Positions 11,473-41,410 of a stretch of 64,000 bases of DNA are shown here, one piece after another. The stretch spans positions 5,125,501-5,189,500 of the forward strand of contig NZ_CP030117.1 in assembly GCF_001039275.2 (NCBI RefSeq). Direction: 5' to 3'. Numbering within the stretch: position 1 is the stretch's first letter; each line of letters opens with the position of its first letter. The position numbers and the translations under genes were made by a program. The stretch is from Brevibacillus brevis (lineage in GTDB: Bacteria > Bacillota > Bacilli > Brevibacillales > Brevibacillaceae). The notes below the pieces were generated by a model. That model did no database searches. It had not been told where the DNA came from and worked only from the letters and a program-made list of their open reading frames with translations.

Positions 11473-12927
11473 CTACGATTGGTTTTTTGACGTTGACGAT
11501 ATCTTTTCCCAACGTGGCCGAAACGCGTTTTGTAGCATCTGTTGGTCCTGTATCGTGGTGGCGAGCACTTCCCGCAGCATCTCGGGCAAGAAAAACGTAA
11601 CCTCACTGCCGAGCAGCAAATCGGGAAACATGCGATTGTACATAAACATGTCGATCGTCCCAACTCGATACAGACGCTCGCGATCAAGCGGTTGCCCGTT
11701 GACTTCAATCTGGATAATTTGCGGCTGGTCATCGTCACTGTAGCGGATGTGCAATCCGTCCACACACATCCAGCCTTCTATTTTTCCGCGAAAACCGTAC
11801 CCTCGCAGCTCCCGATGAACCATTTCCGGTTGAATAGCTTGCTCCAGGACAGTAGTGAGCTGCGCGCCTGTAATCGTGACCGCACAGGCATTGATCGGGT
11901 GGGGCATACTGTGCAACAAATCGGCAAAAGACAAGCTGCCTCGAGGCAGATCAGCAAGCAACAGTCCTCCATTTGCCATGCCGATCTCAGCCCCCGTCCA
12001 TTTGCGAATACTTGCTGCAATGAAGGAACCATAGGGGGTCTCCTCCGTCCAGCCGATGTGCATGTCTTGCTCCAATTGAACAATCGGCTGAAACAAACGA
12101 TTCTCTGCCCATACTTTTTCACTCTCAATGAACTGGCTCAATGTTTCGTCTGACTGGTACTGTTCCGTCTGAAAAAGCTCTGCTTGCATATCTATAATCC
12201 TTTTATGCTTCCCGTCCCAGACGAGTTCTACATGACCCACATACTCGCCAAATCGTCCAGCTTGTGTGATCAAGGTGCCTCCCATTCGTTCTCCATGGGG
12301 CAGTGTCCGGTGAGAGTGTCCACCCAAAATGATATCTAGCCCATCGACTTCACTAGCCAGCACACAATCTGTCTGATAACCGAGATGCGATAGCAAAATG
12401 ACAACATCCACAGACGAGCGAAGCGCCGCAATCTGCTCACGCAAAATCGGGATTGGCTCCTTGATCTCCCATCCCATACTTTGATAGGAGGGGCCAAAGG
12501 GAATTGTCATTCCCAAAATCGCTAGCCGCAGCTCGCCTACGGTATGAATGGCGTATGGTACTGCCCAAGACGGGACTGAATGTGTTGTTGGCTCAAACAG
12601 ATTGCCCGTAATGATCGTGGAGTGTGCATCTGTGTACAGTTCATTCAACTTGTCTTTTGGGAGTGTGATGCCTTCGTTGTTTCCAATCGTCGCGTATTGA
12701 ATCCCGCTTCGGTTCATGATCTCGACGTTTGTTTTCCCAAAGCTCGCTTCCGATCGGATATCCATTCGATCCATATGGTCTCCAATATCGACCGTCAGCA
12801 CATGCTCTCCCCTGCCCTCCCACTCTTCTCGGTGCATGCTCAGGCAGGTTGCAATTCGCGGCATCGTATCAAAATGGCTGTGCAAGTCATTCGTGTGCAA
12901 AATGTGTAAGGTACAGGTGTCTGCCAC
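11473..12927 (-). CDS. yunD: YunD-type metallophosphoesterase / 5'-nucleotidase
   Basis: 484 residues with a GTG start behind GGGAGGGG. The N-terminal metallophosphoesterase domain has TNDLHSHF (12-19), GDHMD (49-53), IGNNEG (81-86), LLSHLG and GGHSHR. The C-terminal half is the 5'-nucleotidase C domain that binds the nucleotide. The usual GNHE/D motif reads GNNE, so the catalytic histidine position is asparagine; this may be a subfamily trait. No signal peptide is present, so it acts in the cytoplasm, unlike secreted UshA-type enzymes. It lies between yunE and the small gene. Confidence 0.85.
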   Translation of the reverse strand: MADTCTLHILHTNDLHSHFDTMPRIATCLSMHREEWEGRGEHVLTVDIGDHMDRMDIRSEASFGKTNVEIMNRSGIQYATIGNNEGITLPKDKLNELYTDAHSTIITGNLFEPTTHSVPSWAVPYAIHTVGELRLAILGMTIPFGPSYQSMGWEIKEPIPILREQIAALRSSVDVVILLSHLGYQTDCVLASEVDGLDIILGGHSHRTLPHGERMGGTLITQAGRFGEYVGHVELVWDGKHKRIIDMQAELFQTEQYQSDETLSQFIESEKVWAENRLFQPIVQLEQDMHIGWTEETPYGSFIAASIRKWTGAEIGMANGGLLLADLPRGSLSFADLLHSMPHPINACAVTITGAQLTTVLEQAIQPEMVHRELRGYGFRGKIEGWMCVDGLHIRYSDDDQPQIIQIEVNGQPLDRERLYRVGTIDMFMYNRMFPDLLLGSEVTFFLPEMLREVLATTIQDQQMLQNAFRPRWEKISSTSKNQS

Positions 12928-27076: not shown

Positions 27077-28390
27077 TCAGACTCGCACACCTTGATATCT
27101 CTCCAATTCCTCTCTCATAAAGCGTGTGCTGTCATTCAACAAGTCAATATCAACAGGATCATGCACAACCCTGCCGTCCTTCTTCATCCATCGACCGTCA
27201 CTCATGACATGCGTGATATTGCCAGCATTCACATTCATCAATACATAATTGTAAGGATCGTAGAGTGGCGCTGTTTGGTGCCCCCCGGTGTCAATCATAA
27301 TGAGATCGGCCTTCTTTCCTGGTGTCAGGCTGCCGATTTCCTCTTCCATCCTCAACGCGCGGGCTCCGTCAATCGTGCCCATTTCCAGCACACTCTTCGC
27401 GTTGAAAACGCCCAGACTTGGTTCTTCACCCTTGATGTTGACCCGTTCATTATGCACGCTGTGGGTGTACGCCAAAGCTACCCGCAATTGTGTAATCATA
27501 TCCGCTCCAACCACGGAGGTTGTGTCCACACCGATTGACGGTCTGCCGCCCTTACTCAGAATCTGATAAAATGGCGGGTATCCATGTCCCATCAGCATTT
27601 CAATCTCAGGTGTAATAGAGACAGACATATTTTCTTGCACAAATAGCTCGTAGTCCTTTTCGGACAATTGGTTGCAGTGGGCAAAGTTAATAAAATCGAG
27701 AGGAAGACCCTCCTCGTGCAAATGAGCGATTAGCCCAGCTTCACCAGGCACCCCTCCCACATGGACGGTAGCGAACACATTCAGCTCATGTGCTTCTTTT
27801 ATACTCCGCTTCAACCTTTCCACATCGTTACTGAGCGCCCCAAGAGCAATCTGAGTCAGTGGGTTGCTGTTTGTCTCCCGCAACCGCAGCATATTTTTAA
27901 AGTTCGCATCTTCATCATGGGCTACCACAGAATCTGCAATCGCCACTATGGTACGAATCCCGATTTCTGAATCCGCTCTCAAAATTTCAAGGCCATGCCC
28001 ATAGCTGTTGGTCGAATTCGCCCAGTGCAGTACGGTTGTAACGCCAGAATGAATCGCCTCCAAATAACCGATATAACTGCCTACATAGATGTCCTGCGGG
28101 CGAAGGCGTTGTCCGATATCACCAAGAAACCGTGTAAAGTAGTCCGTCAGCGACCAGTTCGTAAAGGCTTGATTGAACAAATGCTGATAGACGTGGCGGT
28201 GTGTATCCACGAAGCCCGGCATCACAATGTATCCGGAACCGTCGAGTACCTCCATATCTTCCGTCAGCTCGCTGTTCTTTCCGACCTGTTTGATGATGTT
28301 GTTTTCAATCAAAATATCTCCATTTTTGATTTCTTTAATTTGAGAATCCATCGATAAAATATACGCGCCTTGAATCAGGATTGTTGACAT
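27077..28390 (-). CDS. Amidohydrolase-superfamily deaminase
   Basis: 437 residues of the TrzN/SsnA/cytosine-deaminase type of amidohydrolase. The metal site begins with His63 and His65 in VDTHRHVYQHLF, continues with FATVHVGG and FINFAHCNQLS, and ends with the aspartate region SIGVDTTSVVGAD. Small flanking beta domains (VLDGSGYIVMPGFVD and GSLTPGKKADLIMID) are typical. Likely a nucleobase or aminohydrolase acting on an aromatic ring, exact substrate unknown. AGGAGG precedes the ATG. It is divergent from a candidate structured RNA. Confidence 0.8.
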   Translation of the reverse strand: MSTILIQGAYILSMDSQIKEIKNGDILIENNIIKQVGKNSELTEDMEVLDGSGYIVMPGFVDTHRHVYQHLFNQAFTNWSLTDYFTRFLGDIGQRLRPQDIYVGSYIGYLEAIHSGVTTVLHWANSTNSYGHGLEILRADSEIGIRTIVAIADSVVAHDEDANFKNMLRLRETNSNPLTQIALGALSNDVERLKRSIKEAHELNVFATVHVGGVPGEAGLIAHLHEEGLPLDFINFAHCNQLSEKDYELFVQENMSVSITPEIEMLMGHGYPPFYQILSKGGRPSIGVDTTSVVGADMITQLRVALAYTHSVHNERVNIKGEEPSLGVFNAKSVLEMGTIDGARALRMEEEIGSLTPGKKADLIMIDTGGHQTAPLYDPYNYVLMNVNAGNITHVMSDGRWMKKDGRVVHDPVDIDLLNDSTRFMREELERYQGVRV

Positions 28391-28470
28391 CGTTATACCT
28401 CCTAAGCGTCATTTGAGATGGATACTGCCTTTAAAAAACTCCCCCCTTTTTATATGAGCTACTCTATCGT

Positions 28471-28500
28471 TTGCTACCAAGCTTGATCCTCTACTATAAT
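28471..28500 (+). promoter_or_regulatory. Sigma-A-type promoter of the structured RNA / membrane protein unit
   Basis: TTGCTA (28471-28476), 18-base spacer, TATAAT (28495-28500). The -10 is perfect and the -35 matches four of six. It points toward the hairpin-rich region and the 28773 gene. Confidence 0.45.
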
Positions 28501-28506
28501 AAAATC

Positions 28507-28664
28507 TAGCTGTTTGCTTTGTAGTCGCAAAGGAAAGAGCGCGCGTAGAGTCGGTTTCCGGTAGTGCTCGTCAATGCCCTATCTGGAAATCGGCTCTTTG
28601 TCATTGTCACGAGAAAGCTAGAAAGAAGCGTCTAGCCATCTCGCAAACAATCTAAAACTTTAGA
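28507..28664 (+). ncRNA. Candidate structured RNA or leader (four successive hairpins)
   Basis: Four hairpins in a row: CTTTG/CAAAG (28517-28532); a long one pairing 28548-28564 with 28579-28596; CGAGA-AA-GCTAGA with TCTAGC-CA-TCTCG (28610-28643); TCTAAA/TTTAGA (28651-28664). The long stem pairs fully only as plus-strand RNA, where its mismatches become G-U wobbles. AAAGAGC (28534-28540) can alternatively pair with GCTCTTT (28593-28599), so two conformations are possible. No known riboswitch class is recognised. Confidence 0.4.
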
Positions 28665-28772
28665 CGTACAAAAATGTAAAAAGTTTCAAATTTAAGATAA
28701 ATTTTGCTCTTTGAATTTCTATGCAGAAGGGTTGGGATTTTTACTAAATTTGGTCCTCAATACAATACGGTT

Positions 28773-29162
28773 ATGGTTACCTTTTTCCATTTTCTCGCGT
28801 CTTGTTTATTGGCAATTCCATTTTTTGGGAGGAATCAGGCACTTATGAAAAACAAGACAGCTTGTCTCATCCTTACTATTAGTCAAAGCGTTTATGCCAT
28901 TTTCTTATTGGCTTGGATCATTTCTGTTGTTTTTACCATTGTGCTTCTACCTGAAGATGAATATGATACTGGAGCCCCTGAGGTGTTCTATACGATCCTA
29001 TCGTATCCGCTTGTACTACTTGCCTCAACGCTGGGCAGTTGGTACTACTATCACAAGTTGAAATTCAAAACGAGTTACGCGCTCAACGCCATTCCTTTAC
29101 TTTGGGTCATTCCGATGGCGGTATTTATGATCATTTTATGGAAATTCGGTTTGTCCTCGTAA
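28773..29162 (+). CDS. Small polytopic membrane protein, unknown function
   Basis: About 129 residues with three or four hydrophobic segments (TFFHFLASCLLAIPFFG, SQSVYAIFLLAWIISVVFTIVLL, LSYPLVLLASTLGSWYYY, PLLWVIPMAVFMIILW) and an acidic loop EDEYDTGA. No family is recognised. The start is uncertain: ATG 28773 is used, while ATG 28845 has a better but distant GGGAGG. Its terminator (AGCCCTCC at 29167, partner GGAGGGCT at 31563) is split by the insertion element that follows. Confidence 0.5.
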   Translation: MVTFFHFLASCLLAIPFFGRNQALMKNKTACLILTISQSVYAIFLLAWIISVVFTIVLLPEDEYDTGAPEVFYTILSYPLVLLASTLGSWYYYHKLKFKTSYALNAIPLLWVIPMAVFMIILWKFGLSS

Positions 29163-29183
29163 AAACAGCCCTCCCCGGATGAT

Positions 29184-29208
29184 TGGTCTTACCCCTGTCA
29201 AGTAGACA
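29184..29208 (+). repeat. Terminal inverted repeat of the IS, orfB/passenger side
   Basis: Begins TGGTCTTACCCC and ends AAGTAGACA. It pairs with the repeat at 31529-31553 at 19 of 25 positions. Flanked outside by GAT. Confidence 0.82.
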
Positions 29209-29276
29209 TTTTGAAACAAGCCCTCGTTTATGTGTTCATTGAAAATTAAGTTTTAGACAAAGCCTAATACATGAAA

Positions 29277-29322
29277 CAGCGGCGACTTAAGACCTGATAA
29301 TATAGTCTTAAGCTCACCGCTG
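29277..29322. terminator. Terminator inside the IS, behind the methyltransferase
   Basis: CAGCGG and CTTAAGAC pair with GTCTTAAG and CCGCTG around an 11-base loop, followed by TTTTT on the plus strand and TTT on the minus strand. It can end the methyltransferase transcript and also block read-through from outside the element. Confidence 0.75.
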
Positions 29323-29477
29323 TTTTTATTGAACTATCGAACCCGTTAGCGGAACAAAAAAGGTTTGAGTCTCTTTGTCCGGCTGCTTTCGACCAGCTGT
29401 CCCGATGGTCGGATTCACATCGGCAAGTTACTAATCTCCGTACGTCAGCACACACAGCCCCCCTCCCGATGCTGCCA

Positions 29478-30110
29478 TCAGCGGACGCAAGCTGCCATCT
29501 CCCAGCAAATTTTCGGCTTCCGGTAGCGGTGCATGTCCGTTTCCGTCAACACGTTGATCGTCCATCCGTCAAACAACCGACGCATATCTGCTTCGTCAAA
29601 AAAACGTTTCCGCCGCCCCTCATGCTCGTAATAACGGGGTTCCAATTCGATGCCCTGGCCGGCACCGTAATGAACATCGCGCGTGGAATTCAAGCGGGCT
29701 AGCAGCAATCCGCCAGTGCCGACAACTCGCGCGATTTCGCTAACGATAGAAATAGTATCGTCCCAGTGAAAATAATGCAGGGACAAATCCGCGACAACCG
29801 CCCTCGCACTACCATCCGGAAACGGCAATCCTCCTGTCATATCGAATAGGTTTGTTTCAGCGCCTGGCACATATTTGCGTATAATCGCCAACGACTCAGA
29901 GGAGAAGTCGCAGGCGATGACTCGATAACCTCGTTCCGTTAAAAACAAAGAGTCGCTGCCATATCCGCAGCCAAGATCAATGACCGGTCCATCTTGGGCC
30001 GATGCTAGCATCGGCTCGTATTTTTCCAGCCAAAAATCCACTTGCGGCTTGCCGAGATTCACATCGGCAAACACCTCGTTCCAATGTTCAGCTTCTGAAC
30101 GTTTCGTCAT
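29478..30110 (-). CDS. Class I SAM-dependent methyltransferase (IS passenger)
   Basis: 210 residues with a Rossmann methyltransferase core: motif I VIDLGCGYGSDSLFL (about 43-57), acidic motif II VIACDFSSESL, motif III-like VVADLSLHYFHW and RVVGTGGLLLARLN. This is the general TehB/UbiE-like small-molecule type; the substrate is not evident. The gene lies inside the IS, between orfB and the terminal repeat at 29184, on the same strand as the transposase and with its own terminator, so it travels with the element. Whether it protects the host, for example against an inhibitor, is unknown. Confidence 0.82.
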   Translation of the reverse strand: MTKRSEAEHWNEVFADVNLGKPQVDFWLEKYEPMLASAQDGPVIDLGCGYGSDSLFLTERGYRVIACDFSSESLAIIRKYVPGAETNLFDMTGGLPFPDGSARAVVADLSLHYFHWDDTISIVSEIARVVGTGGLLLARLNSTRDVHYGAGQGIELEPRYYEHEGRRKRFFDEADMRRLFDGWTINVLTETDMHRYRKPKICWEMAACVR

Positions 30111-30309
30111 GGTTAGAACCTCACTTTCTGTGGAGAAGAGCGTAATAATTAGATGCTTGCTATCATTTTGACAAAAGGAACTCTTCTTTCTTTCTTTCTT
30201 GATCGCACATACCTGCCTCGTTAGCGTAATGGCTCAAGTTAGTCTAAAGCATTATTTTCTTAATCTACAATTACATTTTCAAAGTCTATTACATTATTTT
30301 CAGTGAATA

Positions 30310-31143
30310 CTAGGCAATTTGAGCTCGGTAAAGAACCGGGCTCAAATTGTTTAGCCGGACTTGAATACGCTCGTAATTATAGAAGTGTATGTATCGTTGT
30401 ATTGCCTTCTTCACCTCGTCTTCCTTAGTAAAAACATTTAAATACAAACATTCTGTTTTGAGGTGGCTGAAAAAGCTTTCGATACAAGCATTATCCAGGC
30501 AATTTCCTTTTCTCGACATACTAACAGTAATGTTAGATGCTTTTAGGAATTCGTTATATTTCCTAGATGTGTATTGGTACCCTTGATCACTGTGTAAAAT
30601 GACGCCATTCGCCTCTTTTATTTTTAGAGCTGCCTTTACGGTATCCATAACGAGCGTAAGGTCGTTCCGTTTGCTGATCTTATAGGCGATGACCTCGTTG
30701 TTGAAGAGATCGTAAATAACCGACAGATACAGGCGTCGTCCGTTAAAAATCACGAATGTAATATCTGTAGCCCATTTCTCCCGAGGATGTGAAGCTGTAA
30801 AATCGCGGTTTAATTTGTTGTCGGAAACGACCACCTGCTCTCTACGGCCAAAAAACTTCCGTTTCCTGCGAATACGCGATTGAATCCCCATCTCCTTCAT
30901 CAGTCGATACACTCGCTTGTGATTGATTTGGATGCCATGTGATTGTCGGAGCCAAGCTTTTATTCGTGGATATCCATAGATACCCTTGGATTTTTGGTAG
31001 CCATCCATAATCAACGACTTTATCTGCTGTTCTTCCTTTTGTTTAGGTGTAAGATGTTCTTGGCATCGTAGCCACTTGTAATAACCACTTTTCGAAACAT
31101 GAGCGATCTTGCAAAGGAGAGAAACAGGATACCGTTTTGCCAT
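30310..31143 (-). CDS. IS3-family transposase OrfB (DDE integrase core)
   Basis: 277 residues. An HTH_21-like region (about 40-95) is followed by an rve integrase core with Asp127 in WATDITF, Asp186 in LHSDQGYQY and Glu222 in CIESFFSHLKTE; the 35-residue spacing of the last two is the DD(35)E signature. It is in the -1 frame relative to orfA. The A-AAA-C run at the end of orfA is a plausible slippage site producing the OrfAB fusion, joining at TVEFQIIAEMAKRYPVS. The frame is intact, so the element may be active. Confidence 0.92.
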   Translation of the reverse strand: MAKRYPVSLLCKIAHVSKSGYYKWLRCQEHLTPKQKEEQQIKSLIMDGYQKSKGIYGYPRIKAWLRQSHGIQINHKRVYRLMKEMGIQSRIRRKRKFFGRREQVVVSDNKLNRDFTASHPREKWATDITFVIFNGRRLYLSVIYDLFNNEVIAYKISKRNDLTLVMDTVKAALKIKEANGVILHSDQGYQYTSRKYNEFLKASNITVSMSRKGNCLDNACIESFFSHLKTECLYLNVFTKEDEVKKAIQRYIHFYNYERIQVRLNNLSPVLYRAQIA

Positions 31144-31163
31144 CTCTGCAATGATCTGAAATT

Positions 31164-31484
31164 CTACCGTTTTCTCCTTTGGCTTCTTTCCCCCTTTCTG
31201 GCTTCTAAGAGCTTTTTTAGAAATTCTATTTCTGCCTCAAGTCGTTGTATTTTTTCTCCTGGGGGTAGCAGCTTTTCAAAAGTATCATCTGTTTTTCGCG
31301 GCCTTCCCCTTCTATCTTCAAGTCCTTTTAACCCATTGTCCCGGTATTTCCTGACCCATCTTCGGAACATCCTCAAATCAAGCCCATGTGCTTCTTTAAT
31401 CTCGTTATATGTAGCCCCTTGTTCAAATTTTTCTACTACATGGTGTTTGAATTCAAGGGAGTAGCTCTTTTTTATTTGGCCCAT
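31164..31484 (-). CDS. IS3-family transposase OrfA (helix-turn-helix)
   Basis: 106 residues. The helix-turn-helix lies at about 10-55 (FKHHVVEKFEQGATYNEI, LRMFRRWVRKY), followed by a Lys/Glu-rich leucine-zipper-like end (IQRLEAEIEFLKKLLEA) used for multimerisation. The ATG is behind GGAGGGG. The stop is 20 bases before the orfB ATG, and a -1 frameshift at an A-rich run would fuse the two, the usual IS3 arrangement. The terminal repeat lies 45 bases upstream. Confidence 0.92.
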   Translation of the reverse strand: MGQIKKSYSLEFKHHVVEKFEQGATYNEIKEAHGLDLRMFRRWVRKYRDNGLKGLEDRRGRPRKTDDTFEKLLPPGEKIQRLEAEIEFLKKLLEARKGERSQRRKR

Positions 31485-31528
31485 AAAAATTCCCCTCCAA
31501 GTTAAACAGTAAAGGGCTTTCTAATTAC

Positions 31529-31553
31529 TGTCTACTTAAAGGGGATAATATCA
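31529..31553 (-). repeat. Terminal inverted repeat of the IS, orfA side
   Basis: Read on the minus strand it begins TGATATTATCCCC and ends AAGTAGACA. It is the upstream end of the transposase operon and is followed outside by the target duplicate GAT (31554-31556). Confidence 0.85.
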
Positions 31554-31602
31554 GATTCCGAAGGAGGGCTACTCTATTATTGCAGAATACCTGCAAATAA
31601 AA

Positions 31603-31635
31603 AAATACGTGTCTGAACGAATCAGACACGTATTT
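31603..31635 (-). terminator. Displaced sufB terminator
   Basis: A perfect 14-bp stem, AAATACGTGTCTGA with TCAGACACGTATTT, loop of five, is followed on the minus strand by seven T bases. It comes right after the stranded sufB tail (31653-31685), so it is the original terminator of the suf operon, now 5.4 kb from sufB. The stem and the adjoining ACACGTT are nearly identical to the 3' part of the integrase gene (36841-36906). Confidence 0.8.
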
Positions 31636-31652
31636 ACACGTTCCATTATCAA

Positions 31653-31685
31653 TTATCCGATAGAGCCTTCCATCTCGAACTTAAT
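31653..31685 (-). pseudogene. Stranded copy of the last sufB codons
   Basis: Read on the minus strand the 33 bases encode [14 protein letters not shown], exactly the C-terminal ten residues of SufB, but with different synonymous codons from the present sufB end at 37025-37057. It is the piece of sufB cut off when an element integrated in the gene's 3' end. Confidence 0.85.
31669..31685. repeat. Left attachment repeat (attL-like)
   Basis: TCCATCTCGAACTTAAT, identical to 37041-37057. It coincides with sufB codons for IKFEME. Confidence 0.82.
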
Positions 31686-31786
31686 TGTTTTTACGTTAAA
31701 TACCTGTAAATGCACATTAAAAAACCTTGAAAAATCGGGCTTTTCTCTTCGTGAGCATCAATTACCGTTAATATCTTGTAATAAGA

Positions 31787-31817
31787 ATGTGGGCAAATAA
31801 CGGGCATTCTGTGGGCA
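31787..31817. promoter_or_regulatory. Integrase arm-type repeats, left end
   Basis: ATGTGGGCAAA (31787-31797) and TGTGGGCA (31810-31817), with the related ACGGGCA between (31800-31806) and after them. They match the pair at the right end of the element. Confidence 0.6.
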
Positions 31818-32174
31818 CATACACGGGCAACATTCACGACCGTAAAAAGGACTAGCTTGCGCTCCGTTCCTCAGTGAATTCGATGGGTACACAGTCAGTA
31901 CCTTCTTTCAGCTCCGGTATTTATATGTCGAGGCTTTTTACATTGGCCAAAAATCTTCATGCTTCTTTTCTTAATCATATTCACTCACAACACTGAGTAT
32001 TTTCTGCAACAGAAGGTCATAGACAATCATACCGCTTCGCATAATGCTAAGCACTTATTGTTTTGGAACAACTCAAAGGTCAGAGCCAAATGAAAAGACG
32101 AATAAAATCGTTCCTTAAAAAGAATTTAACATTCTAGGACGTCATTCTCTAACCTAGCTGCCGCTTTTTTCCCT
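31818..32174. other. Element interior without recognisable gene
   Basis: AT-rich sequence between the left arm repeats and the YolD-like genes. Only very short frames without ribosome binding sites are present, and nothing is recognised. Confidence 0.5.
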
Positions 32175-32420
32175 CTATTCAAAGCTTACCTTCATAATGT
32201 CCATGAAGGGTATTTTCCGTATTGTTCCGTTTTCCTCTACATGAACTAACCTTGTACGCGAGTCAAGTACTGTAATCTTCCCACGCACTTTATCAGGCAT
32301 TCCCCAAACGGTTAACGCTCTTTCGTCACCATCTTCTTTTGCTTCAACGAGTTGACTCCCCAATTCTTCTAATTCAAATTCATCCCGAGTCGGTCTTTTT
32401 GGTGTGGTTGACTTTGCCAT
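32175..32420 (-). CDS. YolD-like small protein (second copy)
   Basis: 81 residues behind AAGGAG. After a basic N-terminus (AKSTTPKRPTRDEFELEEL) the rest, GMPDKVRGKITVLDSRTRLVHV and IRKIPFMDIMKVS, has the three-strand pattern of YolD-like proteins. It starts 10 bases after the stop of a longer YolD-like gene and is co-transcribed with it. YolD proteins usually accompany a Y-family DNA polymerase of the UvrX type, which is missing here. Confidence 0.6.
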   Translation of the reverse strand: MAKSTTPKRPTRDEFELEELGSQLVEAKEDGDERALTVWGMPDKVRGKITVLDSRTRLVHVEENGTIRKIPFMDIMKVSFE

Positions 32421-32430
32421 AGAGATCTCC

Positions 32431-32742
32431 TTAGTCCGCTTTTACGGCCGTTATGTGATCCATAGATATCCACTGGCTATCTTCATCCGTCACAAGCTTA
32501 ATTCTCCTGCCGTTCTGGTCAATCCACTTGACCACTCCCCACATCGTACATGTGGTTCCCAGGTTGCCTTTTATTTGGTTCCACCAAGAAACTGTGACCA
32601 CGTAATCCTCCCGTGCCGCATCCCTTTTGATGTACTGGAACGATTCTAACTCATCTTGTTCAAGGATTGGCATAGAGACAAGCTTTTCGACTTGCTTCGC
32701 TTGTAAATATAGCTCTCGTTGTTCCGGTAATACAAATCTCAT
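32431..32742 (-). CDS. YolD-like protein
   Basis: 103 residues: an N-terminal 'RF.LPEQRELYLQ' region, the acidic 'LEQDELESFQYI' helix, then beta strands YVVTVSWWNQIKGN, WGVVKWIDQNGRRIKLVT and WISMDHITAVKAD, matching the YolD-like family. In bacilli such genes precede UvrX-type error-prone polymerases in phages and plasmids. Here only a second small YolD-like gene follows. No clear ribosome binding site is seen before the ATG. Confidence 0.7.
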   Translation of the reverse strand: MRFVLPEQRELYLQAKQVEKLVSMPILEQDELESFQYIKRDAAREDYVVTVSWWNQIKGNLGTTCTMWGVVKWIDQNGRRIKLVTDEDSQWISMDHITAVKAD

Positions 32743-32970
32743 AGAAAATGGATTTTTCTATCTTACTGGCCCTCTGCTTTGTTCCTTTCTCTCACATACT
32801 TCTAGTACCTTCTTCCATGTTCCTTATTGCAGGGATGCGTGTTTCTTCAATATGTCATATTTAGCATATCAGTATATATTTCATAAATATTTCATTTTTA
32901 TTTAACATTGTATTTTGTTAGAATCTGAAAGAGTTTTACATTACATATAAAGAAAATAGGGGTTGGTATC

Positions 32971-33939
32971 ATGATTGCACTAGATAGTAATTGGAATTCA
33001 CTTAGGGTGTTCTACGGTCTAACAGAAAAAGATTTAGACCTCTTGTATTCATACAAAGAATTCTTCAACACTCACTCAAAAGAAATCGTAGATTGTTTTT
33101 ATAAAGAATTGGAAAAACATCCTAATTTGAATCAAATGATTCGTACAAATGTAACTATGGACCAGTTAAAGAAAATGCAGATTTGGTATATCGAAACGCT
33201 TTCTTCTAATGTTATTGATGAAGAATATGTAAACAGCCGAAAACGAATCGGTACAACCCATGCTAGAATTGGATTGTCGGCTTCTTGGTTTTTAGGTGGA
33301 TACTCACTGTATTTACGTCTTTTTTCTGATAGAATTCAATCGTTAAAAAACTCAACTGTATTTTATCAGGCTCTTATCAAAAGAGTTTTTTTTGATTCTG
33401 CAATTATTCTTGAACAGTATATCGGCGACACGATGCGTGAAAATGTAAGCTACCGCCACAATATGGAGCAAATGGCAGCCGAATTGACAGCTACAACTCA
33501 AGAAGCGCTTAGAATCTCTTCCGTCTTCACCGATTCTGCAACCAAACTATATGAATACAATGGTGAGATCGCTCATTCCATGAATGTGTTAAAGGAGCAG
33601 AATGAGGAGATTGAGAAACTCAGCGGCTTCGTGGCAGATGTTTCTACACAAACAAATCTTCTAGGCCTTAATGCTGCGATTGAAGCTGCTAGAGCTGGAC
33701 AGCACGGACGTGGCTTTACCGTTGTTGCTAATGAAGTACGTAAATTAGCCGATAAATCAAATGCCTCATCTAAAGACATTTATCAATCTCTACAGAACAT
33801 TAACAATCAATTACTTAAAATTGATCAACAGGTCTCATTATCAACTGTTTCCGCTGAGCAATTAGATACTACTTCCGAGCAATTATTTTCTATCATCCAT
33901 AAACTAGATGAAATTTCTAATCGTCTTCATAATCACTAA
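32971..33939 (+). CDS. Short globin-coupled methyl-accepting protein
   Basis: 322 residues. The globin sensor domain (about 10-160) keeps the proximal haem ligand His97 in [16 protein letters not shown] shortened signalling domain follows with the hairpin tip [20 protein letters not shown] and EVRKLADKS, but it is about 110 residues shorter than in HemAT and lacks the outer methylation helices. No membrane segment. It may be a soluble oxygen-sensing adaptor. Codon use is AT-rich, unlike the host HemAT (4926-6242). AGGGG precedes the ATG and a terminator follows. Confidence 0.8.
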
Positions 33940-33949
33940 CTACTACTGA

Positions 33950-33979
33950 ACGGCCAAAGGAGCTTATTTCTTTGGCCGT
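33950..33979 (+). terminator. Terminator of the short globin-coupled gene
   Basis: Perfect 10-bp stem ACGGCCAAAG / CTTTGGCCGT with a 10-base loop, followed by GTTCTATT. It lies directly after the stop codon of the gene. Confidence 0.78.
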
Positions 33980-33996
33980 GTTCTATTATGTAGCTC

Positions 33997-34165
33997 CTAC
34001 CTTTCCCACCCTTCCAGGACCGTCATGGTATCTGGCTTCGACCTCTTCCACTCAATGTATTCCTCTTTCGCCAGAACCTCCAACACCGTCATAATGCCGC
34101 CGCGGGTTCGCCTTGTCTTGATGTATAGTTCGACTACCGTTGGTGTCCTGTGACTGTGCCGACGC
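33997..34165 (-). pseudogene. Unidentified gene remnant
   Basis: On the minus strand a frame without start encodes a GC-richer, protein-like end (RTRGGIMTVLEVLAKEEYI, then KRSKPDTMTVLEGWER-stop). Base composition and codon use are unlike the AT-rich neighbours. It looks like the 3' end of a deleted gene, but no family is recognised and a chance frame cannot be excluded. Confidence 0.3.
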
Positions 34166-34347
34166 TGATAATCCTATCTTATGAAACAGAGTTGATAACT
34201 AAAACATTAGTGGAGAAAACTAAAATATCTTAGAGAGCTTGCTTCTGCCTCTTACACGAAGAAGCATAGGAACAAGATTCCACGAGCAGAATATTTTTTA
34301 TCAGTATATATGTGTTACGATGCTTTATCGAAGGGGAAATGTAATAG

Positions 34348-35823
34348 GTGACTAAATGGATGACCTTTTTGATCGGATCATTTATGGGAGCATTGATTGC
34401 TATTGTATTTTCAGGAGTTCTCATCCTTGCTTTTTCTAGGCCGCTGATACAATGGATCGTTGGTCGTTTCACGAAAAGACTGATGAATGAACGTTACCCC
34501 GAAAATATTTGGGAAATGGTAACTGCTTTGACGCGTGTCCCTCCAAGAACAGTCATAGAAAATAGCTTGAGGTCCTCGGAAGGAGATGTAATTGAAAGAC
34601 CGTTTGGGAGTCCTCGTAAATTTCTTAATTTCGACGGACTTATTTTTTCACCTGCTCAATTGGCAGTCTTACCAGCTCCAGAGTTTGTAGAAGTAGATAT
34701 GCATATTACCATTGGACCTAAGGCTAAAAAACCTTTGTCGTTAGAAATCCCCATCATGGCAGGGGGGATGGGTTATGGAGTTGGAGTCTCAGAAAAAGCG
34801 AAGATAGCTATTGCAAAAGGAACATCTGCGGTCGGCACGTTAACGAACACGGGTGAAGGCGGATTTCTACCTGAAGAGAGACAAAATGCCAAATATTTGA
34901 TCGTTCAATACCACTCGGGGGAATGGTCAAAAGAACCGAATATTCTCAGACAAGCAGATGCCATTGAAATTCGAATGGGACAAGGAGCTACTGCAGGTGC
35001 CGCCAATTTCACGCCTGCTGAGTACATTCAGGGAAGAGCACGTAAAATCATGAAGTTGCAAAACGAAGATTATGTAGTGATCCCTTCAAGACATGAGGAA
35101 ATTCAAAAACCTCAAGATCTTCGCAAGTTAGTCGATAAACTCCGTACCCTCACTGATGGAGTGCCTATTGGAGTTAAAATATGTGCAAGCGCAAAAATGG
35201 AAGCGGATTTGGAGGTTGCCATTTTTTCAGGGGTCGATTTTATCAGCATTGATGGAGGACAGGCAGGGTACAAGGGCAGCCCCCCCATCTTAGAAGATGA
35301 TTTTGGACTTCCCACCATATACGCCTTATCACGAGCTGTGCAATACCTGGAAAAACGTCAAGTGAAGGAACAAATTACCCTTTTAGGTGGTGGAGGATTT
35401 TTCACCCCATCTGATTGCCTGAAAGCACTTGCATTAGGTGCTGACGGTGTTTACATGGGGACGGCCATTCTATGGGCAATGACACATGATCAAGTAACAA
35501 AGGCAGTTCCCTGGGAACCTCCTACAGAACTTCTTTTTTATCCGGGGAGCTTAACGGAAGAATTTAATGAACAAGAAGCAGCAATATATTTAAAGAACTT
35601 CTTTACATCATTTGTGGAAGAAATGAAGGTTGCAATTCTTGCATTAGGAAAAACCTCTCTTTGTCAAGTCGGAGTTGAAGATCTTGCTGCTCTTGATGAC
35701 GAGACAAGTAAAGTAACAAGAATTCCACTCGTATCTGAACCATATATACCAACAAAAGAATTTACAGAATCACTATGGGCCTCCTGTAATGACGAAAGGG
35801 ACGCATCGATCTCTCGTTCCTAA
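34348..35823 (+). CDS. FMN-binding glutamate synthase-like protein
   Basis: 491 residues with a GTG start. An N-terminal membrane segment (about 6-30) precedes the Glu_synthase TIM barrel: IPIMAGGMGYGVGVSEKAKI, GTLTNTGEGGFLPEE, the FMN-site segment FISIDGGQAGYKGSPPILEDD and LGGGGFFTPSDCLKALALGADGVYMGT. It corresponds to B. subtilis YerD-type proteins, which lack the glutaminase domain and have no established reaction. It is cargo of the integrative element and has a terminator directly behind it. Confidence 0.82.
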   Translation: MTKWMTFLIGSFMGALIAIVFSGVLILAFSRPLIQWIVGRFTKRLMNERYPENIWEMVTALTRVPPRTVIENSLRSSEGDVIERPFGSPRKFLNFDGLIFSPAQLAVLPAPEFVEVDMHITIGPKAKKPLSLEIPIMAGGMGYGVGVSEKAKIAIAKGTSAVGTLTNTGEGGFLPEERQNAKYLIVQYHSGEWSKEPNILRQADAIEIRMGQGATAGAANFTPAEYIQGRARKIMKLQNEDYVVIPSRHEEIQKPQDLRKLVDKLRTLTDGVPIGVKICASAKMEADLEVAIFSGVDFISIDGGQAGYKGSPPILEDDFGLPTIYALSRAVQYLEKRQVKEQITLLGGGGFFTPSDCLKALALGADGVYMGTAILWAMTHDQVTKAVPWEPPTELLFYPGSLTEEFNEQEAAIYLKNFFTSFVEEMKVAILALGKTSLCQVGVEDLAALDDETSKVTRIPLVSEPYIPTKEFTESLWASCNDERDASISRS

Positions 35824-35834
35824 GAACAGAAAAT

Positions 35835-35862
35835 GCCCTCCCCCGTTAACCGGAAGGAGGGC
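35835..35862. terminator. Bidirectional terminator after the glutamate synthase-like gene
   Basis: GCCCTCC pairs with GGAGGGC, with an inner CCGTTAACCGG. On the minus strand it is followed by ATTTTCTG. It serves the plus-strand gene and the fragment on the minus strand. Confidence 0.7.
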
Positions 35863-35870
35863 TGTTGTAG

Positions 35871-35953
35871 TTATTGGCTTTTTTCTGACGTCCCGACCGA
35901 ATCTCCTACATCATTCTTGATACGCTCTGCATCCACGAATCCTTCAGCCACCA
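35871..35953 (-). pseudogene. C-terminal fragment of an unidentified gene
   Basis: Reading on the minus strand the end MVAEGFVDAERIKNDVGDSV...KSQ-stop looks like a genuine protein C-terminus with a terminator behind it, but upstream it runs into the antisense of the integrase remnant. It is a junction of two rearranged pieces. The family is not recognised. Confidence 0.35.
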
Positions 35954-36963
35954 TGTACGCGACAACAGAAACCGACAGGCAAACTGGAACATATAAAGAG
36001 AAAACAAAGGGAGGATTTAAAACGAAGAAAGAGGCACAACTTGCAGCAACTAAAGAGGAATCAAAGATCAACCTTTTCGGTTTTGCTGAGAACGGAAGCG
36101 AAAGGGTTGATAACTTTTTCGACGATTGGCTGGAGATATATAAAAGGCCCAATGTGAAACCGATCACCTATACTCTCCAGTAAGGCACAGTCCGACGGAT
36201 TCACAGCATATTCAGTACAGCTATGAATGACGCCGTCCACGAGTTTCGAGTTTTACGGGAAAATCCTGTTCAAAAGATCAAGATCCCAAAGCAAGTGGAC
36301 AAGTCAAGCAAGGTGGCTTACTTTACACGAGATCAACTGGAAAGGTTCTTGGAATGTGTAAATACCCCAATGAAAAATGCGAAATATCAACACTCCATCC
36401 AATACTACGCCTTTTTCACGCTGATGGCACGTACCGGGCTTCGTATCGGTGAAACGCTTGCTCTGACTTGGGATGACCTTGACTTTGATGCAAAAACATT
36501 AACGAAAAGTAAGACTCTTGTATACCCCTTGAATTCGCAGCCCTATCTATCAACGCCAAAATCCAAAAACAGTGAAAGGACCATCAAGTTAGACGAAATC
36601 ACATTAAAACTAATGAAACGGCACAGGATCAACCAAAAAGAGGTTTGCCTGATGTATAAGAACTACAAACCTACCAAAGACAACATTATCTTCCACCAAC
36701 ATGACGGCCGCTGGCTCCGTACCAACGTAGTTCGTGATTACTTTAAAGCGATTTGTAAGCGAGCTGATCTCCCTATACTATCGCCTCACGCCCTTAGACA
36801 TTCCCATGCTGTCCATTTGCTTGAAGCTGGTGTGAATATAAAATACGTGTCTGAGCGACTTGGACACGCAAGCGTGAAAGTCACCGCAGACACGTATTTA
36901 CACGTTACAAAGAAATTTGAAGATGACGCCCTTTCACTTTATGTGAAATACATGCCCAGCTAA
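35953..36963 (+). pseudogene. Tyrosine integrase, broken
   Basis: One frame holds an arm-binding N-terminal piece (GTYKEKTKGGFKTKKEAQ, then FFDDWLEIYKRPNVKPITYT), an in-frame stop TAA at 36181-36183, and then the rest of the core-binding domain and the catalytic domain. About 50-60 residues seem deleted at the junction. The catalytic part is intact: Arg74, His189-x-x-Arg192 (PHALRHSHA), His215 and Tyr225 in TADTYLHV (numbered from ATG 36223). The gene ends about 80 bases before the right attachment repeat. With the N-terminus broken it is unlikely to work. Confidence 0.85.
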
Positions 36964-36964
36964 A

Positions 36965-36986
36965 ATGTGGGCAAATTGTGGGCAAA
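36965..36986. promoter_or_regulatory. Integrase arm-type repeats, right end
   Basis: Two adjacent 11-bp repeats, ATGTGGGCAAA and TTGTGGGCAAA, begin at the integrase stop codon and match those at 31787-31817. Confidence 0.65.
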
Positions 36987-37024
36987 ACCATATTCGGAAG
37001 CTTGCAACCCTTGTGGCGCAAGGG

Positions 37025-38422
37025 TTAACCAATGCTTCCCTCCATCTCGAACTTAATGAGACGGTTCATCTCTACCGCATACTCCATCGGCAATTCTTTT
37101 GTAAATGGCTCGATGAAGCCCATTACGATCATCTCAGTTGCTTCTGCTTCTGACAAGCCGCGGCTCATCAGGTAGAAGAGTTGATCCTCGGATACCTTGG
37201 ATACAGTCGCTTCGTGCTCAAGCGTGATGCTGTCGTTCATGATCTCGTTGTACGGGATCGTGTCGGATGTGGACAGTTTATCCAGAATCAGCGTATCGCA
37301 CTTGATGTTGGACTTGGAGCCTTCCGACTTGCGTCCAAACTGCGACAGACCACGGTAGGTTACTTTTCCGCCATCACGGGAAATCGACTTGGAAATGATC
37401 GTCGATGTGCAATCAGGCGCCAGGTGAATCATTTTCGCACCTGCGTCTTGGTGTTGTCCTTTTCCTGCTACTGCAATGGAAAGAACGGTACCTTTCGCGC
37501 GAGGTCCTTTCATGATAACAGCTGGGTATTTCATCGTCAGCTTGGAACCGATGTTACCATCGATCCATTCCATGTTCGCATCCGCGTAAGCAACCGCACG
37601 TTTGGTAACGAGGTTGTATACGTTGTTGGACCAGTTTTGGATCGTGGTGTAACGGCAACGAGCGCGTTCTTTTACGATGATTTCTACAACAGCGGAGTGC
37701 AAGGAATCCGTGCTGTAGATTGGAGCTGTACAGCCCTCTACATAGTGAACGAAGGAATCTTCATCGGCGATGATCAGCGTACGCTCGAATTGACCCATGT
37801 TCTCGGAGTTGATGCGGAAGTATGCTTGCAGTGGAGTTTCTACTTTTACGCCTTTTGGAACGTAAATGAAGGAACCACCGGACCATACTGCCGAGTTCAG
37901 TGCAGCAAACTTGTTGTCTGCTGGAGGAATCACTGTCGCGAAGTATTCTTTCACGATTTCTGGGTGCAGTTTAACTGCGGAGTCCATGTCGCAGAAGAGA
38001 ACGCCCAGCTTTTCCAGGTCTTCCTGCATGTTGTGGTAAACTACCTCAGACTCATACTGAGCAGATACACCTGCGAGGAACTTCTGCTCTGCTTCTGGAA
38101 TACCCAGCTTGTCAAAGGTTGCCTTGATTTCTTCTGGCACCTCATCCCAGCTACGGCCTTGCTTTTCAGAAGGCTTTACGTAGTAGGTGATGCTGTCAAA
38201 ATCGAGGTCGTCCAGATCGCCGCCCCATTTTGGCATCGGCATGCTGTTGAAGATGTCCAATGCTTTTAGACGGAATTCCAGCATCCATGCTGGCTCATCC
38301 TTGATCTTCGAAATTTCTTCGACGATCTCGCGAGTTAAACCCTTTTTGGTACGGAATACAGAAACGTCCTTATCGTGAAAGCCGTACTGATACTCCTGTA
38401 TTTCTGGGCCTTTAACAGCCAT
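37025..38422 (-). CDS. sufB: Fe-S cluster assembly scaffold SufB
   Basis: 465 residues, complete SufB: the N-terminal helical part and the beta-helix core with [41 protein letters not shown] and the C-terminal [20 protein letters not shown]. SufB works with SufC and SufD as the SufBC2D scaffold on which Fe-S clusters are built from sulfur supplied by SufS and SufU. AAGGAG precedes the ATG. It is the last gene of sufC-D-S-U-B. Its final ten codons are of different origin, supplied by the integrative element, but the protein end is unchanged. Confidence 0.95.
37041..37057. repeat. Right attachment repeat (attR-like), inside sufB
   Basis: TCCATCTCGAACTTAAT, identical to 31669-31685. It lies in the sufB coding sequence for IKFEME, 16 bases before its stop. 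Confidence 0.82.
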
Positions 38423-38461
38423 CGTTGCTCACTCCTTCTTGTTCATGTCCCTTACCCATCA

Positions 38462-41410
<2,949 letters not shown>

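Follow-up and report, generated by a model that had tools for sequence, protein, structure and literature searches.

Prophage insertion at the 3' end of sufB in Brevibacillus brevis and a predicted terminator antisense within the integrase gene

Prophages at sufB have been reported from Latilactobacillus sakei, whose group IV prophages have a listed attachment (att) sequence, TATCCGACGGAGCCTTCCA, lying over the same last codons as in the case described here (PMC9641780), from Staphylococcus pseudintermedius (PMC8297860), from Lactococcus lactis, in which the prophage lies between llmg_1968 and sufB (PMC3757294), and from Staphylococcus aureus, in which Sa1int prophages occupy the 3' end of the gene (PMC11217367). 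We analyzed a 64-kb stretch of Brevibacillus brevis DNA (contig NZ_CP030117.1), hereafter the window, in which an element has entered sufB at its final codons. The element has the same target gene as these phages and differs in being a decayed remnant; the available portions of the reports do not mention a terminator. An earlier reading of the window made from its letters alone (the sequence-only reading) had implied that sufB was a novel target, which is contradicted by the published sites in Staphylococcus, Latilactobacillus, and Lactococcus; the sufB insertion itself is of a known kind. We give a probability of roughly 0.8 to the reading that a temperate phage inserted here, that its integrase gene carries, in antisense, a predicted terminator for sufB, and that the host has kept fossils of such genes.

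Terminators can be shared by, or overlap, convergent genes. Such terminators have been described in the intervening region (PMC3027695). The window likewise has a convergent pair and a predicted intrinsic terminator, but this terminator lies entirely inside a mobile gene's coding sequence and would travel with that gene to new hosts. Phage-inducible chromosomal islands at fis resemble the window element in lying at the 3' end of a gene and possibly carrying terminator sequence (PMC10111431); in the available part of that report, the block of identity is a copy of the host terminator itself, whereas the terminator predicted here is unrelated in sequence and inside the integrase gene. As judged by titles and the openings of abstracts, no description of antisense terminators in integrase genes was found in the literature, and such a terminator, together with its later adoption by the host, is, to our knowledge, undescribed and would be a new way in which elements repair their target genes. 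If true, it would explain how an insertion at the 3' end of an essential operon is harmless, as the ends of both the protein and the transcript are restored. It would also be a clear overlap of functions, one strand encoding an integrase and the opposite strand a host terminator, and would provide a route from phage genes to regulatory RNA signals of the host, with a single locus holding the series of fossils. A survey of Paenibacillus larvae prophages names SufB and NifU among the cargo (PMC9341999), which would be explained if prophages at sufB had been given imprecise borders.

Insertion at the end of sufB

The sufB gene is on the minus strand (37025-38422; Pfam SUFBD_core, E value (E) 1.6e-85) and is 94-100% identical to its counterparts in the other genomes compared, from Brevibacillus and near genera; its 3' end comes from the element, on the attR side. 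A 33-nt direct repeat (31653-31685 and 37025-37057), the copies of which are 79% identical, contains an identical 17-bp core at 31669-31685 and 37041-37057. Both copies encode, on the minus strand, the last ten sufB codons and the stop, and the left copy is the displaced sufB tail (attL). The integrative element proposed in the sequence-only reading is borne out by the duplicated core, the rebuilt gene end, and the second tails found in relatives. The core was said there to encode IKFEME; it is an exact repeat within SufB codons, but it spans IKFEM and two bases of the codon that follows. The proposed arm repeats are also present: TGTGGGCA-type repeats lie inside both element ends (31786-31806 and 36964-36984, 86% identical), the right one within the 61-bp spacer between the integrase stop and the sufB stop (36964-37024), where it may serve as an arm site. 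No tRNA gene was found in the 64-kb window, which rules out a tRNA target, and no Rfam family reached the gathering threshold in 28000-40000.

The sufB tail was searched as a degenerate 20-nt pattern in 26 Brevibacillus genomes (G-numbers denote genomes of this set, and L-numbers denote labelled sequences). The pattern was found in all 26, with two or more copies in nine; a chance repeat is ruled out, as the backward control gave zero. The two tails were separated by 5.4 kb in the window genome, 7.6 kb in G017, 21.0 kb in G019 (with a third, distant copy), 51.8 kb in G005, 40.4 kb in G009, 41.5 kb in G010, and 40.3 kb in G022, and were on separate contigs in G012 and G024. In all nine genomes, sufB adjoined an integrase or what remains of one. 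G008 had an integrase with a single match to the tail pattern. The third tail-like copy in G019 (L103, 4187) is approximately 576 kb away beside integrase-like DNA and may reflect rearrangement between att copies. In G017 (L106, 4176), a different integrase family follows each tail, as in a tandem at one site.

The window integrase adjoins attR, convergent with sufB, and is broken, in agreement with the tyrosine integrase remnant proposed from the sequence beside the right repeat. Its N-terminal arm-binding part (35953-36183, plus strand; Arm-DNA-bind_4, E 1.5e-10; 84-87% identity, with likeness to relatives from approximately 35971) is in the open reading frame (ORF) 35833-36183. The C-terminal part (36223-36963, plus strand; Phage_integrase, E 4.3e-31; PHROG integrase, E 1.2e-55) forms a second ORF and is 91% identical to that of Brevibacillus fortis. 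The stretch between the two pieces is gone, and the gene has a stop.

Brevibacillus phage Emery (KC595516) has an integrase 78% identical to that of the window and a sufB tail 62 nt past the integrase stop, i.e., an attP in a free phage; it is alike in the integrase and the tail and differs in being free and in having an antisense hairpin built with another 5' arm. A scan of viral contigs gave at least 80 loci; among the matches listed, 32 of 81 tail matches were followed within 1800 nt by a candidate tyrosine integrase in convergent orientation. The candidates were called by a simple motif, and two of the 32, at distances above 1 kb, are probably spurious. The record of Halomonas phage YPHTV-1 (L255) has an integrase 63% identical and a Firmicutes-type sufB tail at its end, which is odd for that host.

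Profile search recognized no phage structural gene among the listed genes of the window element. The insertion in G009 matched a major head protein, terminase, tape-measure protein, minor tail protein, helicase, and primase-helicase among the eight ORFs tested. The left end of the element (31686-32005) lies within a segment, 31593-32005, that shares 91% identity with its counterparts at the left of the G012 and G022 insertions. Based on this identity, the phage genes in G009, the attP of Emery, and the broken integrase, the window element is, as far as its sequence can tell, a decayed and internally deleted prophage.

A predicted terminator antisense to the integrase gene

On the preferred reading, a temperate phage used its tyrosine integrase to enter the final codons of sufB. 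As attP supplies the codons after the core and the stop, the SufB protein is restored, and with the crossover there the host terminator comes to lie past the opposite end of the element. We propose that the replacement intrinsic terminator lies antisense within the integrase coding sequence rather than in the 61-bp spacer. From its position, sufB transcription is predicted to stop approximately 130-190 nt past the stop codon, and termination there would restrict antisense transcription across the integrase and into the prophage.

The hairpin in question (36844-36896, minus strand) is formed by the codons of KYVSERLGHASVKVTADTY, and the T-rich tract TTTTATATT, a moderate U-tract, directly follows it (36835-36843). 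The antisense fold of 36842-36900 has an energy of −31.3 kcal/mol, and none of 200 dinucleotide shuffles was as good. Against synonymous-codon nulls, the hairpin was equaled in 0 of 300 and 0 of 200 shuffles on the combined score and in 1 of 2000 on fold energy. When the synonymous null was applied to 13 integrases with 2000 shuffles each, zero to two shuffles were as good in 10, the exceptions being L006 (7), G010 (100), and L007 (1701). With a stable hairpin on the transcript strand and a U-tract immediately after it, as expected of an intrinsic terminator, 36844-36896 appears to be a predicted terminator that replaces sufB's own.

Terminators were scored by dynamic programming from the hairpin energy and the T-tract, using d'Aubenton Carafa's d with what we take to be its formula and constants. 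This scorer replaced an earlier scoring by local folding, which missed nested hairpins including that of the window. In a first set of 32 sufB-site and 10 other-target integrases, at most seven of 300 synonymous shuffles were as good in 28 of the former and one of the latter, and d exceeded zero in 19 and none, respectively. In the last 300 nt, the antisense strand reached d>0 in 17/32 versus 0/10. The antisense region at 300-600 nt gave 3/32 (L112, L153, and L186, the three members of another integrase family, which did not reach it in the last 300 nt), the region at 600-900 nt gave 0/31, and the sense strand gave 0/32 in each of two regions.

The expanded set comprised 61 integrases after 72 were dropped at 90% redundancy, with 35 at sufB, 18 at other targets, and eight without an assigned target. 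(L314 was counted as other-target though the tree places it beside the sufB-site L185; the count was left unchanged.) The coding sequence had an antisense d>0 in 20/35, 1/18, and 1/8, respectively (Fisher test, sufB versus other, p = 0.00026), and no more than two of 200 synonymous-null scores were as good in 23/35, 3/18, and 2/8. The sense strand had no d>0 in any of the three classes (0/35, 0/18, and 0/8). Spacer terminators showed the reverse distribution (2/35, 6/18, and 1/8; p = 0.014). As a terminator in either location was not significantly more frequent at sufB (22/35 versus 7/18, p = 0.15), its location rather than its presence distinguishes the sufB phages. Phages at guaA had d>0 in the spacer in 7/10 and in the coding antisense strand (last 300 nt) in 1/10 (10 convergent integrases from 42 stretches). 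Among the 15 sufB-site integrases below d>0 in the coding region, spacer terminators with d>0 were present in L333 and L232, and several of the rest did better than the synonymous null; L333 has a longer spacer (103 nt), with a terminator there and none in the gene. The idea that integrases of any target carry terminators of this type was not supported by the other-target counts.

The hairpins might be functionless features of an ordinary prophage remnant at a site already known, produced by conserved motifs that happen to have complementary codons (KYVSERLGH and ADTYLH are such motifs). We consider this unlikely, as the synonymous nulls retain the protein and lose the hairpin, integrases with the same motifs and other targets have no hairpin, the hairpins lie at different codons in different clades, and the fossils described below retain the hairpin after the coding sequence was lost.

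Several results nevertheless weigh against a terminator antisense to the integrase. A consensus terminator scan listed a hairpin at 31603-31635, and 36844-36896 was absent from it. The loop energies of our scorer are approximate. In the expanded set, the 15/35 sufB-site integrases below the threshold in the coding region, the 3/18 controls that beat the null at 2/200, and the non-significant difference for either location count on the same side. Covariation among 19 hairpins was weak, with the score reached in 10 of 500 shuffles and one covarying pair, and these rows were 19 of the 26 distinct sequences preselected for pairing in at least eight of nine outer positions. The sense strand of the window hairpin can fold too (−25.5 kcal/mol), and it could thus have a role as a DNA palindrome. 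In that case, the inverted repeats would be DNA sites for recombination or regulation, bound by an integrase, excisionase, or repressor, as would also suit their location beside attR near arm-type repeats. We regard this as improbable, and slightly more so than functionless hairpins: the T-tract is on the antisense side, with a sense-strand d>0 in 0/61, the position and sequence vary between clades, the guaA phages have the hairpin and T-tract in the spacer, and integrase-free fossils retain both.

Under the preferred reading of an antisense terminator, its place in the gene varies. The pairing of KYVSER and ADTY codons forms the hairpin in the window and most Brevibacillus. A longer hairpin nearer the stop is found in L185, L141, L110, L255, and L166, and one in the C-terminal tail in L135, L143, L249, and L116. 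The hairpin is approximately 256-282 nt into the gene in G008 and L155 and at 386-417 in L112 and L186, and further positions were found in L236/L328, G010, and L126. In the integrase tree, hairpin positions follow clades; the sufB-site integrases are not one clade apart, with the G008/L112 group far off and the other-target L239 and L341 among the C and G types. The long branches of the tree make its depth uncertain; the non-homology of the positions is independent of it. Hairpins at non-homologous codons in different clades suggest that antisense terminators arose repeatedly. We further hold it likely that phages inserting in coding 3' ends must bring a terminator, that those at sufB carry it antisense in the integrase gene, where it evolved several times and was kept by hosts, and that the sufB terminators of Brevibacillus are largely dead integrase genes.

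Probable integrase fossils downstream of sufB

The compact hairpin beyond the displaced tail (31603-31635, minus strand) has a perfect 14-bp stem, an energy of −19.3 kcal/mol (0/200 shuffles as good), and TTTTTTTATTTG as the U-tract after it. The layout expected without the insertion, sufB followed directly by this hairpin, was found in five of the 26 genomes (G002, G006, G011, G018, and G023), as the sequence-only reading had anticipated. Its view of the hairpin as the native terminator of sufB fared less well, since the hairpin matches integrase DNA at 22 of 23 nt (36887-36909) and at 86% over 29 nt (36840-36868).

The hairpin could still be the ancestral sufB terminator, resembling the integrase by chance or through transfer from host to phage, as it is the only terminator beside sufB in those five genomes and also occurs at three displaced tails. 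This has a low probability in our judgment, as the matches to integrase codons include bases outside the stem, tblastn with the window integrase finds the compact-hairpin copy in G011 (E 6.6e-8), longer intermediates exist, and in a second genus the same place is occupied by a fossil from a different integrase family (L405, below). The hairpin 31603-31635 is, by these comparisons, probably not native but the fossil of an earlier integrase 3' end, and as it lies at the displaced end, the sufB site would record at least two rounds of insertion. With prophage decay, the integrase would be lost, and the hairpin would tend to persist as the host sufB terminator with a better U-tract.

The DNA 3' of sufB was classified in the 26 genomes, with the best terminator sought within 300 nt. 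Eight had an integrase of the window family, including the broken one of the window, and G017 and G008 had other integrases. The compact hairpin was found in five and longer integrase remnants with the hairpin in six (G007, G014, G004, G015, G016, and G021). G003 had a remnant of the G017-type family, G013 was a weak match to it (E 0.003), and G001 was placed there only by likeness to those two. In G025, similarity to an integrase was weak (E 1.3e-4) and the hairpin was a different one, in the arm region, and G020 had an integrase-like stretch recognized by eye only, with no usable hairpin (best d −17.7). An integrase-derived hairpin was the best predicted sufB terminator in 11 Brevibacillus genomes other than that of the window. 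It was also the best at six of the eight displaced tails examined (the window, G012, G022, G005, G009, and G019); the remaining two were in G024, which had a remnant of another family (d −18.9), and in G010, which had a hairpin that was unrelated by eye.

Fossils of type A scored d of 8.0-40.0 (17 rows) versus 1.7-11.3 in six intact genes (p = 0.0007), although the rows are not independent, as eight of the 17 are of the same compact type. The gain came mostly from a longer T-tract, which is expected of a tract freed from protein coding.

Outside Brevibacillus, the genus g3 of the same family was represented by five genomes, of which three had integrases, one a conventional terminator, and one (L405) a fossil. 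The L405 sequence, GGAATCCGTATATTTTGCTTGCGGATTCC-TTTTTG, corresponds to the hairpin of a G008-type integrase, and the integrase similarity there (E 2.9e-8) indicates that it is an independent fossil of another integrase family. From 11 genomes of another family, 10 tails were parsed, two with and eight without an integrase; seven of the eight had a conventional terminator with d>0, and several shared CTCCCAAAC...GTTTGGGAG.

A second compact hairpin was observed approximately 5.8 kb downstream in G023 (L042, approximately 12656-12691) and G006 (L044, approximately 12657-12738). The one in G006 is accompanied by a degenerate sufB tail and is read as another old insertion scar.

Other contents of the element and its surroundings

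Near the left end, the element carries two YolD-like genes on the minus strand. The first (32175-32420; PF08863, E 3.2e-7) matches the left ends of the insertions in G019 and G024, and the second (32431-32742; PF08863, E 4.7e-13; phrog_3352, function unknown) has matches in G019, G022, and G009.

Two plus-strand genes also lie between the prophage ends, one encoding a HemAT-like protein with protoglobin and chemotaxis-signalling domains (32971-33939; PF11563 and PF00015) and the other a flavin mononucleotide (FMN) protein with a Glu_synthase domain (34348-35823; PF01645, E 1.1e-58). Protoglobin DNA related at 68% is found downstream of sufB in G017 and G001, and the two genes (32971-35823) may therefore be host genes caught in a rearrangement. 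An IS3-type transposase pair (rve and helix-turn-helix families; 30310-31484) is located immediately left of the displaced sufB terminator.

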